A stretch of 64,000 bases of DNA from Alcaligenes aquatilis (GTDB lineage: Bacteria > Pseudomonadota > Gammaproteobacteria > Burkholderiales > Burkholderiaceae_B): assembly GCF_003076515.1 (NCBI RefSeq), contig NZ_CP022390.1, positions 2,232,001-2,296,000 on the forward strand. The letters run 5' to 3'. Position numbers and translations under genes: made by a program. Below the pieces are notes generated by a model. The model had not been told where the DNA came from, did not search any database, and saw only the letters and a program-made list of their open reading frames with translations. Shown here piece by piece: positions 9,077 through 55,749 of the stretch. How positions within the stretch are numbered: the stretch's first letter is position 1; every line of letters begins with the position of its first letter.

Positions 9077-9872
9077 GCTCACGCTTGCGGGCACTATCTG
9101 GATTGCCGCGGACCTGCACCTGGGTCCGGACAATCCAGACACCGTCCAGGATTTCCTGCAGTTTCTGCACTCCGCCCAGCATCAGGCACACGTCTTGATT
9201 CTGGGCGGTGATATTTTCAATGCCTGGATCGGTGACGATCAAATTGCCCACCCTGCCCCCTGGCTTGCTCAAGTCAGTGAGGCGCTGCGCTCTTTTGCGC
9301 AGCAACATCCGCTTTATTTAATGCGTGGCAATCGTGACTTCCTACTGGGCAAGGCCTACGCCCAACATGTCCACGCCACGCTCTTGCCGGATCAAGTGGT
9401 CCTGGATACCTCTGCCGGTTTGATTTTGATGTCCCACGGTGACGAGTATTGTCTGGACGATCTGGCCTATCAACGCTTTCGCTATTGGGTACGCAAACCC
9501 TGGCTGCAAAAGCTGTACCTGGCCTGCCCGTTAAGCCTGCGCCAACGTATTGCAGACTCTGCCCGTGCGGGTAGCCAGCGCGGCAAGCAATACAAATCCA
9601 AAGAGATTATGGATGTGCAGCCTGCGGCGATTGTCGCGGCCTGCGAGGCACACTCTGTGCACGCCATGGTGCATGGCCACACACATAGACCCGCCGTGCA
9701 CGACATTCCCGGCTTTGAACCGGTACGCCGATGGGTACTGCCGGATTGGGAGTCTGACTTCTCTAAAGAAGAACGGCGTGGCGGCTATATCAGTATTGAA
9801 GGCACGCAGCTTTGTTTGCACCAATGGGGTAAAAAGGATCAGTGCCAGACACTGGGACCTCAGCAAGTTTGA
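9066..9872 (+). CDS. lpxH: UDP-2,3-diacylglucosamine diphosphatase
   Basis: LpxH hydrolyses UDP-2,3-diacylglucosamine to lipid X and UMP in lipid A synthesis at the inner membrane. The calcineurin-like metal site is complete: ADLHLG near residue 16, [27 protein letters not shown] and the C-terminal HGHTHRP. No ATG lies in frame at the right place; the TTG at 9066 (TTG TCG AAT AAG) gives 268 aa and overlaps the cyclophilin stop by 11 bases, so that start is chosen. Coupled reading with the upstream gene would compensate for the weak start codon. Confidence 0.93.
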
Positions 9873-10000
9873 CTTCGTTGACTCCGGCTATAGGCAGTTG
9901 GTTTTAAGTTGGGTTTTTTCGTCCGTTCATGGGATGAGAAACTGCTTATTCTTGTGAGCGACAGCGACAGGCCGCAGGAATCAAGGTAGCTGCATAAGCA

Positions 10001-10230
10001 TTTTTGAGGGGGCCGCTGGGCTCGACTTGGCGGGTCTCCGGCCCGTGCTGTGCACGGGTTCCCTGGTCTCTTGCAGTATCCAGGCGCCCTGTGAACTCGC
10101 GGGGTGGCTCGTCCCCCGGACGAACCACAAGCGCCCCGCTCAAACAGCACAGGGCTTGCATCCTGGATACTGCAAAAGCCTGCGGCCAGAGTCCTGACTC
10201 GCCCATCGAGCCCAGCGGCCCCCTCAAAAA
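10001..10230 (-). repeat. nested inverted-repeat element, copy A (candidate structured RNA)
   Basis: The 230-base block is bounded by a perfect 25-base inverted repeat (10001-10025 with 10206-10230). Inside are further paired arms: 10071-10084 with 10162-10175 (14 pairs), 10086-10093 with 10148-10155 (8 pairs), 10104-10114 with 10118-10128, and a small hairpin 10042-10048 with 10052-10058. Read on the minus strand, the single C-A mismatch of the 10104-10128 stem becomes a G-U pair, favouring a minus-strand transcript. The same architecture, with different stem sequences but the same loop words (TGTTTGAGCGGGGCGCTT, ACCCCGCGAGTT, GCCGCAGGC), recurs in copy B. No protein frame explains it. Confidence 0.7.
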
Positions 10231-10364
10231 CACAAAAGAGACCATATTTCTTGCGGCCAAGATGCCTTCTCCTGCTTCCTATCAAGTGACAGTCAACAAC
10301 TGGAGTCCTGCTACAAAACAGCCCATGAATAACGCAAGGCTGCTTGTCCCCACCTCACTGTGAG

Positions 10365-10596
10365 CCTCTCGGTTCGTCTGCCCCGGTATCCGGGGCGGTT
10401 TAGACAGCTTGCCGCAGGCGGTGTTCGGATACGGGATGCAAGCGCCCTTCTGTTTGAGCGGGGCGCTTGTGTCTTGTCCAGGGGACAAGACACCCCGCGA
10501 GTTAAGGGCGCGCCCGTATCCGAACACTGACAAGGGTACCGGTGCGCAGCACCGGCAAGTAGTCAGCCCGGACACCGGGGGAGACGAACCGAGAGG
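10365..10596 (+). repeat. nested inverted-repeat element, copy B (candidate structured RNA)
   Basis: This is homologous to copy A but in the opposite orientation. The outer stem is 10365-10379 with 10582-10596, continued by 10381-10387 with 10574-10580. Inner stems are 10421-10435 with 10513-10527 (15 pairs), 10442-10449 with 10504-10511 (8 pairs), 10458-10463 with 10493-10498 plus 10469-10479 with 10483-10493 around a CGCTT bulge, and hairpin 10539-10545 with 10549-10555. Most stem bases differ from copy A yet pair equally well, whereas loop words are identical. That compensatory pattern is what a conserved structure, rather than a simple DNA repeat, would leave. Confidence 0.7.
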
Positions 10597-10740
10597 AGTC
10601 TTGCTGAGACCAAGCTCTCCTCACGTATCAAAAGCCAAGCCAGACCAACTAGCTGGCGACAAACCCGCTATTTGCTAACTAACCCTTGAACACAACAATC
10701 GCCAAAAAAGTGCCTATCCAGTTAGCACACCAATCAAGAG

Positions 10741-10800
10741 ACAGACAGACAGACAGATAGGTAGGTAGGTAGGTAGGTAGGTAGGTAGGTAGGTAGGTAG
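10741..10800. repeat. tetranucleotide microsatellite (ACAG)4-ATAG-(GTAG)10
   Basis: Four ACAG units (10741-10756), one ATAG, then ten perfect GTAG units (10761-10800). It lies in the gene-free region downstream of uppP and outside any coding frame. Long perfect tetranucleotide tracts are prone to slippage. Confidence 0.95.
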
Positions 10801-10840: not shown

Positions 10841-10878
10841 AAAAAAAATCCCCGCCGACAGCTAAGCCAAGCGGGGAT
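10841..10878 (-). terminator. rho-independent terminator of uppP
   Basis: ATCCCCGC (10848-10855) pairs with GCGGGGAT (10871-10878); on the minus strand the stem is followed by eight T (10841-10848), 26 bases after the uppP stop. Confidence 0.85.
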
Positions 10879-10904: not shown

Positions 10905-11765
10905 CTACGTCATCAGCCACACAAACAACACTCCACCCAGGGCAATCCGATACCAGGCAAAGGGTCGATAAGTACGGCTGGATACAAAGCGCAGCACCGC
11001 CTTCACCAGGAACAGCGCACTAAAGAAAGCGGCAATAAAGCCTACAATAATCGCGCTGCTCTGATCTGTACTCAAGGACGCACCGTTGCGGTACAGGTCA
11101 TAGACCGTGGCGGCCAACATCGTTGGCATAGCCAGAAAGAAAGAAAATTCCGTGGCCGTCTTGCGCTGAATACCGGCCAACATGCCGCCGATAATCGTCG
11201 CCCCCGAACGCGACGTACCTGGCACCATGGCAATGCACTGGGCAAAACCAACGACCAAAGCCTGCTTCCAGGTGATCTGCTCCAAGGCAAAAGCCGTGGC
11301 CTTTTGCGAAGTGGCAGTTTCACCCTGATCGCCGTCTGCCGTGTGCTTTGCATACTGTGGCTTGCGCTCGACCCACAGCATCAACAAGCCACCCAGCACC
11401 AGTGTGAACACAAACACAATCTGGTGATGGAACAAGGCTTTCACGTATTGAATCGTCAAGGCACCAATCACCGCAGCGGGCAAAAAGGCGATCAGCAGAT
11501 TGCGGGTGAACATCATCTCAGTGCGATCACCACGCAAGGTTCCCATGATCAGTTGAATCAGACGCGCACGGAAAATCCAGACCACGGCCAAAATCGAACC
11601 AAACTGAATAACCACCTCGAACACCTTGGCATCGCCCGAGGAAAAATCAATCCAGGAACCCAGTATCAGCAAGTGTGCCGTACTGGAGACAGGAATAAAT
11701 TCAGTAATACCTTCAACAATCCCCAGAAACAGGGCCTTCAACAAATAAATGGTTTGCTCGGTCAT
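10905..11765 (-). CDS. uppP: undecaprenyl-diphosphatase
   Basis: This integral membrane enzyme dephosphorylates undecaprenyl pyrophosphate to recycle the lipid carrier for peptidoglycan and other envelope polymers; overproduction gives bacitracin resistance in relatives. The 286-aa protein shows both active-site segments: GIVEGITEFIPVSSTAH with Glu18, Glu22, Ser27 and His31, and PGTSRSGATI with Arg186. Seven to eight hydrophobic helices are apparent. A polar loop (residues 133-160) between them is somewhat long. It is followed by a strong terminator and lies 26 bases downstream of the TerC/CBS gene. Confidence 0.96.
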   Translation of the reverse strand: MTEQTIYLLKALFLGIVEGITEFIPVSSTAHLLILGSWIDFSSGDAKVFEVVIQFGSILAVVWIFRARLIQLIMGTLRGDRTEMMFTRNLLIAFLPAAVIGALTIQYVKALFHHQIVFVFTLVLGGLLMLWVERKPQYAKHTADGDQGETATSQKATAFALEQITWKQALVVGFAQCIAMVPGTSRSGATIIGGMLAGIQRKTATEFSFFLAMPTMLAATVYDLYRNGASLSTDQSSAIIVGFIAAFFSALFLVKAVLRFVSSRTYRPFAWYRIALGGVLFVWLMT

Positions 11766-55542: not shown

Positions 55543-55749
55543 CTTTTCAGCGGCCTCTATCGCAGCAAACCTTATCTGCGCACGATACAAACCCAGAAGC
55601 TTTTCTCAACTGCTTACGACGCGCCACACTTAACGCCTAGCAAAAAGCACAGCCCATACTTTCTCTGAACTGCCTACTCGGCAGCAAACTCTTTGTCCCG
55701 CTTGTCGCGTCACGGGCAAACTTTCTAAGCTGCCTACTCGGCAGCAAAC
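55543..55749 (-). CRISPR. orphan mini-array of type I-F-like CRISPR repeats
   Basis: On the minus strand, 28-base repeats GTTTGCTGCCGAGT-AGGCAGCTTAGAAA occur at 55722-55749 and, with three changes, at 55662-55689, separated by a 32-base spacer (55690-55721). Exactly 60 bases further is a decayed copy (55602-55629; 32-base spacer 55630-55661), and a still weaker one at 55543-55570 (about 19 of 28 bases). The palindromic CTGCCGAGTAGGCAG core and AGAAA end match the type I-F repeat consensus I know (GTTCACTGCC...GGCAGCTxAGAAA). Decay increases leftward, so the leader is probably the AT-rich DNA at 55750-56090. No cas gene is in the window. Confidence 0.72.

Follow-up and report, generated by a model that had tools for sequence, protein, structure and literature searches.

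The gap between the convergent genes lpxH and uppP of Alcaligenes aquatilis contains two strongly folding modules, A and B, which we consider to be two modules of one old, gene-less, MITE-like unit beside the uppP terminator (probability about 0.9). The modules belong to a multi-copy family in which one strand is folded and the pairing is preserved, and such a well-preserved fold suggests some role when it is copied into RNA or single-stranded DNA. The full explanation, which joins the MITE-like unit to a function in read-through transcripts, is in our estimate evenly balanced. The features concerned are listed below; positions refer to the window, i.e. the whole analysed stretch of 64,000 nucleotides.

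9084-9872, plus strand: lpxH (UDP-2,3-diacylglucosamine diphosphatase), 3' end toward the module pair.
10001-10230, minus strand (the strand that folds): module A, about 230 nt, outer arms 10001-10025 and 10206-10230; model match G000:2242027-2242204 (-), 179.4 bits.
10231-10364, no strand: spacer separating the outward-facing modules A and B, without a promoter-like site.
10365-10596, plus strand (the strand that folds): module B, about 232 nt, outer arms 10365-10394 and 10567-10596; model match G000:2242393-2242570 (+), 197 bits.
10421-10527, plus strand: central stem of module B, arms 10421-10435 and 10513-10527 (helix 4 of the covariation count).
10450-10503, plus strand: apical hairpin of module B, with the conserved internal loop CTGTTTGAGC (10450-10459) opposite GCGAGTT (10497-10503).
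10469-10493, plus strand: hairpin inserted in the apical hairpin of module B, loop of 3 nt, read from the sequence.
10539-10555, plus strand: 3' hairpin of module B, CCGGTGC-GCA-GCACCGG, with a C(GNA)G triloop and an AAGGGNA word just 5' of it.
10841-10878, minus strand: terminator-like hairpin and T-run at the uppP 3' end, recognised by eye (its loop is too long for the terminator scan used).
10905-11765, minus strand: uppP (undecaprenyl-diphosphatase), 3' end toward the module pair.

The first-pass annotation had described A and B as two copies of one architecture, and at these positions the arms, the central stem and the apical and 3' hairpins are all recovered, with z values of about -12. 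RNA folding energies are -164.4 kcal/mol for A (z -12.3) and -155.8 kcal/mol for B (z -11.7), and for neither module does any of 200 dinucleotide shuffles fold as low. A repeat search returns the two as a 164-nt inverted pair with 73% identity; the outer arms are 100% complementary over 25 nt in A and 93% over 30 nt in B, and inner arms are found at 10068-10084/10162-10178 (A) and 10421-10435/10513-10527 (B). Direct comparison confirms that the loop words are identical between A and B, the facing internal-loop words of module B being TGTTTGAGC/GCGAGTT. Nine short helices were counted in the core, some of which belong to the same longer stem. Almost every loop is a triloop, and among the matches listed the median length of the outer stem is 27 pairs. 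Between module B and the uppP terminator, at 10740-10800, there is a tetranucleotide microsatellite, (GACA)n/(GGTA)n.

Using the core of B, BLAST finds 23 places in the 3.84-Mb genome itself (G000) at E < 1e-4, including B, the others having 67-93% identity. Nineteen own-genome copies were aligned for the covariation analysis and for covariance model R1, a check that had been proposed at first pass; R1 gives 25 own-genome matches (E up to 1), A and B among them, and covariation among the copies is strong. Within the genus 9 of the 10 genomes (own included) have R1 matches, 14-81 each. Beyond it the counts are lower bounds, since at most 10 candidates per genome were scored for the family and at most 6 for the order: R1 matches occur in at least 68 of 250 family genomes (at least 23 of 43 genera), and under strict settings in at least one of 399 order genomes outside the family (G520), the three others matched being family members including the own genome. 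Another match outside the family, a weak one, is seen in G027 (E 1.1e-4). Model-confirmed hosts include Pusillimonas, Parapusillimonas and Pigmentiphaga (12 matches in the 39 loci that were scanned out of 80 listed). In copies from other genera the words GCCG, GCAAG, CTGTYYGAGC, GCGAGTT and AGGGNA are for the most part retained while the stems differ, and a few of these copies are without the inserted apical hairpin.

The idea in the first-pass annotation that CGAGTT-type words recur in intergenic hairpins of other proteobacteria is supported: a wider family exists in related genera and a shorter form across the order. Of 399 genomes of the order, 93 (from 51 of the 159 genera) contain the apical hairpin word CTGTYTGAGC-gap-GCGAGTT, against about 20 genomes for a reversed control. 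With a gap of up to 30 nt, TGTTTGAGCG-gap-CGAGTT has 0 matches in the own genome because the real gap is longer than 30 nt. Most of 22 modules from five genomes of three other families follow a similar plan by eye, with GGGNA at the expected place in 16. In a trial alignment of six short forms 16-19 of 34 pairs are held in five and 26 in the sixth, which we take for misalignment. BLAST against plasmids and phages gives no match. The Rfam comparison that had likewise been suggested is without a match for the modules: over the whole window release 15 yields only a tRNA and a CRISPR repeat, both outside A and B, and for region 9900-10700 at E up to 5 a single match of 15.7 bits, against 81 required. 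The CRISPR repeat is a CRISPR-DR4 match at 55722-55749 (-), with 36.8 bits against a gathering threshold of 35.

The preservation of pairing can be expressed in several ways. RNAalifold on the 19 own-genome copies predicts 67 pairs, 47 of which are retained through changes on both sides. When a fixed 60-pair structure is used, 97.2% of the cells pair and 40 of the 60 pairs are double-changed; double-sided changes occupy 204 cells, against 58.7 in shuffles and 18-41 with partners slid (the slid controls are 33-44% paired). For 113 distinct copies, mostly from the genus, 97.6% of the cells pair, and changes on both sides are seen in 52 of the 60 pairs where shuffles give 37.6; the alignment used here had been fitted to the model and is therefore biased in its favour. 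In the central stem (helix 4) all 12 counted pairs have such double-sided changes. That stems diverge and still pair, as first noticed from A and B only, extends to the outer stems, whose sequence is almost wholly different in unrelated copies (among the matches listed they have little in common beyond the last bases) and yet remains paired. Nearly identical cores also occur in different outer stems, e.g. in L005 and L007.

Among orthologs at the lpxH-uppP site 13 of 94 pairs are compensated in B (six genomes) and 13 of 93 in A (five genomes), whereas 10 and 11 pairs, respectively, contain a broken cell; these compensatory changes are not all independent, since arm segments of G009 changed at once, and the counts may be inflated because gene conversion may carry both pair partners together. 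In the G009 ortholog the hairpin tips and whole segments of both arms are replaced as blocks, a pattern suggestive of gene conversion or of template switching.

One stem pair had been pointed out as G-U on one strand and C-A on the other, a remark that generalises to many copies. On the element strand G-T mismatches outnumber A-C mismatches 60 to 12 (44 to 12 without three pairs). The same is true for the outer stems of 90 distinct copies (67 to 17, in an alignment that scored G-T and A-C alike) and for the inner stems (226 to 47 after dropping G-T-dominated pairs, 319 to 48 including them). The p-value of 3.5e-8 for the asymmetry assumes independent cells and is uncorrected for strand-biased mutation. 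Judged by this excess of G-T over A-C, one strand is probably the folding strand; RNA and single-stranded DNA both fit the excess.

Comparison of the lpxH-uppP site between genomes is in line with an insertion. The gap measures 1,032 bp in G000, with A and B inside, against 113 bp in G008, which is without modules there and keeps a similar terminator hairpin at uppP. Both modules are also present at this site in G001, G002 (one of two uppP loci), G003 and G009, and G006 has B plus a truncated A, which makes six genomes with B and five with an intact A. In G004 a single module lies near uppP in a different arrangement, and in G005 and G007 no module was found at the site. Terminal inverted repeats (TIRs) and a target duplication of the A/B unit itself are no longer recognisable in the window, and the case for insertion is therefore built on its homology and arrangement and on the short site in G008; alternatively, the latter could reflect a deletion.

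Complete mobile units are seen in G004 (3.65 Mb), where many of the 81 model matches are paired at constant spacing. Comparison of twenty of its pair regions yields two unit families, X and Y, together with a third (two of the twenty regions and one more locus). The whole pair unit is dispersed in X and Y with TIRs and target duplications, clear TIRs being seen only in G004. Y occupies 7 loci (about 843 bp, 92-97% identical, terminal repeats CAGGCTGCTGACAAAC) and is inserted at terminator-like hairpins; at 5 of the 7 loci both flanks carry 10-25 nt of the hairpin, and at the other 2 they do not. X occupies 11 loci (about 733 bp, terminal repeats GGTTCTTCG) and lies in A/T runs, of which several follow a hairpin. 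For the 8 of 11 X units that could be measured, flanks agree in 8/8 bases in three, 7/8 in two and 6/8 in three, in A/T-rich sequence where chance matches are frequent. The Y-end pattern has 14 sites in G004 and 0 or 1-2 in each of the other nine genomes; three extra sites in G004 (400 nt each) contain no transposon, two being like partial copies and one lying in an apparent gene. The topology of a module tree places the B modules of the two families, X and Y, as sisters, from which at least one module is common to both kinds of ends. Their A modules branch near one another toward the base of the genus copies but are not a single clade, and the A type of the window is placed elsewhere, among B-type modules.

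The units appear to be gene-less: the longest ATG open reading frames are 48-151 aa in the 20 G004 units and 99 aa in the intergenic region of the window, none of transposase size, and within the genus no transposase going with the module family was found. The X ends have what we take to be an ISL3-like look. A search for an ISL3 transposase as driver was without result: G004 has one match of 23.1 bits against a cut-off of 23, in a frame with an internal stop. This borderline match recurs in all nine genus genomes searched; good ISL3 matches number five in G006 and one in G002, and the ends of the G006 elements are unlike those of X. As a side observation, G000:C1:695840-696076 and its equivalents in eight genus genomes belong to a conserved frame of about 416 aa that matches DDE_Tnp_ISL3 with 22-24 bits, and in 8 of the 9 genomes a stop falls within the matched frame.

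Neighbouring copies within 1.5 kb, counted as copies and not as events (114 matches from 81 chosen loci plus 16 from 8 loci added for holding two), are (-,+), that is inverted with their 3' ends outward, in 37 of 40 cases, (-,-) in three (one an antisense self-match in L144) and (+,-) in none; the L151 pair relies on a 30-bit match. BLAST groups the spacers into 25 clusters, of which two are direct pairs. Eleven close pairs in five genomes of other families are all (-,+), having been selected as close (-,+) pairs among the listed order-wide places of the apical hairpin word. Other close neighbours among these listed places are (+,+) at 626 bp and (-,-) at 687 bp, with no (+,-) below 700 bp; L426 shows (+,-) at 2.1 kb, likewise among the places listed. 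Against the paired-unit reading stands the fact that many copies are solitary (40 loci) and that in other genera modules are also dispersed singly or, as in L103 and L119, arranged as direct tandems. An IS30-like transposase and a kinase-like gene (by eye) inside widely spaced pairs were judged incidental.

At the 40 solitary loci the gene on the 3' side points at the module in 33, whereas on the 5' side there is no preference (19 against 21). The 67 sites whose class could be determined from mechanical ORF calls (23 of 90 are without a class, and orthologous sites are counted separately) divide into 32 convergent, 31 co-directional and 4 divergent, compared to 8, 32 and 9 for neighbouring ORFs of the window. 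Given the opposing 3'-side genes and the rarity of divergent sites, most of the elements appear to lie beside a gene end, toward which the fold turns its 3' side. Among the matches listed the 3' end (GGCGTCTT) is only weakly T-rich, so that simple intrinsic termination is not obvious.

Based on this arrangement we tentatively propose, at somewhat below even odds, that the fold acts on read-through transcripts by termination or 3' protection and insulates neighbouring genes. The pair in the window was probably inserted near the uppP terminator as a unit of the kind seen in G004. Read-through from either neighbour would then give a transcript ending with one module in its folding orientation; the module would fold as it is made, and the transcript would be blocked or capped (by termination, or by protection against 3' exonucleases). 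By insulating the neighbouring genes in this manner, the folded module might render the insertion tolerable. A point against insulation is that a plain hairpin would suffice, which leaves the invariant internal loop unexplained.

The fold might instead be used at the DNA level, as single-stranded or cruciform hairpins read in trans by a recombinase, transposase or repair protein, comparable to REP doublets but much larger, and be kept because the enzyme reads one strand. We consider this main rival possible, though on the unlikely side. G-T is tolerated in DNA too, making the G-T excess compatible with such a role, and the modules show no upstream enrichment of sigma-70 promoters and are dispersed alone in other genera. 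C(GNA)G triloops form stable DNA hairpins. The loop of the 3' hairpin has this form in 95 copies of a mainly genus-level set of 109, and in 24 of the 46 copies of a wider set, a pattern that recalls such hairpins. The outward inverted pairs moreover resemble REP dimers (PMC3733652). A Y1 transposase was detected in 5 of 22 genomes searched, four of which (G010, G142, G358 and G361) hold modules too. Nonetheless, Y1/HUH transposases (PF01797) are absent from all 10 genus genomes (G000-G009), 9 of which hold copies, and from the module-holding G057, G102, G305, G348 and G423. In addition, similar modules occur under two kinds of G004 ends, which makes the binding site of one transposase unlikely.

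It might also be argued that the units are order-wide, terminator-seeking mobile elements with a structured-RNA pair as their real cargo, in which the fold, via its internal loop, would be selected for e.g. host-factor binding or transcription control at gene ends. The RNA fold itself would then be the selected function because the module pair outlived its transposon ends and passed between the unrelated ends of X and Y. We regard this as doubtful, the more so as a clear sister relationship between X and Y is limited to their B modules.

Selection for function would be superfluous if the modules were passive repeats, with a fold kept by template switching within palindromes or by gene conversion. 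The exchange of hairpin tips and outer-stem segments as whole blocks in the G009 ortholog and the nearly identical cores in different outer stems (the L005/L007 type) can be understood in this manner. Such processes, however, should not favour G-T over A-C on one strand (strand-biased mutation could contribute), and the internal-loop words are mostly constant across genera while the stems change, and recur order-wide. Passive maintenance is rated as improbable.

Least probable, in our estimate very much so, is that each module is a stand-alone sRNA gene, the family acting in trans. The strong strand-specific fold and the invariant loops would suit an sRNA, and bprJ is an sRNA within another betaproteobacterial repeat (PMC3110155). 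However, when the preceding 55 nt are scored for sigma-70 promoters in 39 copies (of 58 that are non-redundant), the mean best score is 4.22, against 4.43 in shuffled sequence, and the lpxH-uppP locus has no sigma-70 promoter signal; the outer stems of unrelated copies have little in common among the matches listed, and site occupancy varies between species. The first-pass annotation had left the choice between a structured RNA and a cruciform: a conserved, strand-specific fold with covariation is supported, whereas a stand-alone RNA gene is not, given the missing sigma-70 promoter signal and the way the copies behave as dispersed mobile repeats. Two further candidates were rejected, namely attC sites of cassette arrays (the modules are paired inverted, not arrayed) and a palindrome family with conserved TIR-like outer stems (among the matches listed, unrelated outer stems share little beyond the last bases).

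Known repeats were compared through the passages of the cited papers that describe them. ERIC, Correia/NEMIS, RUP and YPAL are bacterial MITE-type intergenic repeats of about 100-200 bp, mostly forming one long stem-loop; they too are short, gene-less, dispersed and mostly intergenic, several with TIRs and target duplications, and their transcripts are predicted as long stem-loops, while some of the repeats affect the stability of neighbouring mRNA (PMC2229807). The present units, in contrast, measure about 730-840 bp, occur with two or more types of ends and have two outward multi-helix modules with conserved internal-loop words. CIR elements of Caulobacter and Brucella consist of two inverted-repeat arms joined by a linker, but carry a GANTC motif in the loop, and no multi-helix fold of the present kind is described for them in the passages concerned (PMC2229807). 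Overall, the family resembles a MITE whose body is structured, similar to ERIC or Correia but larger, paired and more complex.

REPs (20-40 bp, with a GTAG or CGTC tag) are likewise intergenic palindromes, often in inverted doublets (PMC3733652), and REPIN/BIME doublets go with a RAYT; modules of about 230 nt in a genus without a Y1 (RAYT) transposase differ from these. In L101, L116 and L185 (G057, G088) the outer part of the unit has REP-like GTAG-type hairpins (TGTAGTGGCAGCCCTTGTGGCTGCC...) joined to the module; in L101 and its relatives these lie beside the module and not inside it. IS1272/TnSha1 (IS1182 family) targets terminator hairpins, as does family Y of G004, but is reported to leave the hairpin partly deleted and without target duplication (PMC4923244), whereas 5 of 7 Y units have 10-25 nt of hairpin on both sides.

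Nearer still are the BREs of Bordetella and further betaproteobacteria (Hot et al. 2011), GC-rich repeats of 75-91 bp that form tandem arrays with differing numbers of units, are usually intergenic and in one copy overlap a small RNA (PMC3110155); the modules of about 230 nt, with 37 of 40 close pairs inverted and 3 direct, are set apart from them by description (PMC3110155). Bor-1 and Bor-2 are intergenic stem-loop families of Bordetella with a predicted structure (Petrillo et al. 2008), and Bor-2, at 167 bp, is close to the size of the present core (PMC2267715). The description used for this comparison mentions neither pairing nor mobility for Bor-1/Bor-2 (PMC2267715). An earlier partial sighting as BRE or Bor-2 is possible, the comparison with these two being one of descriptions.

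In the open-licence literature we found no description of the paired element, the nearest being the BRE and Bor-1/Bor-2 papers, with REP papers as the sole other relevant finds, and the family is apparently unnamed. The outcome that at first pass had been named as speaking against a structured element, an exact match to a known REP or MITE family with a transposase, was not encountered among the named families compared. Most dispersed bacterial repeats that have been described are simple hairpins. The present family would be a new structured nucleic-acid family: multi-helix, covarying, orthologous over several species, with relatives order-wide and without an Rfam match. It would also allow one to ask if the conserved part of a mobile element can be a functional fold, and it hints at terminators as a common safe haven for different transposon ends.

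Two minor observations concern larger arrangements. Units from other families (L434-L436 in G361, L431-L433 in G358) have extra long inverted arms with CTTTTCTTGGCAAGACAAGAAAAG-like hairpins, which are perhaps the outer ends of those units. The own genome contains two copies (L031 and L032, at about 3.72 and 3.67 Mb) of a segment in which a module pair accompanies the end of what by eye is an isochorismatase-like gene, and one of the two copies has an open frame of 1,112 aa between its modules.
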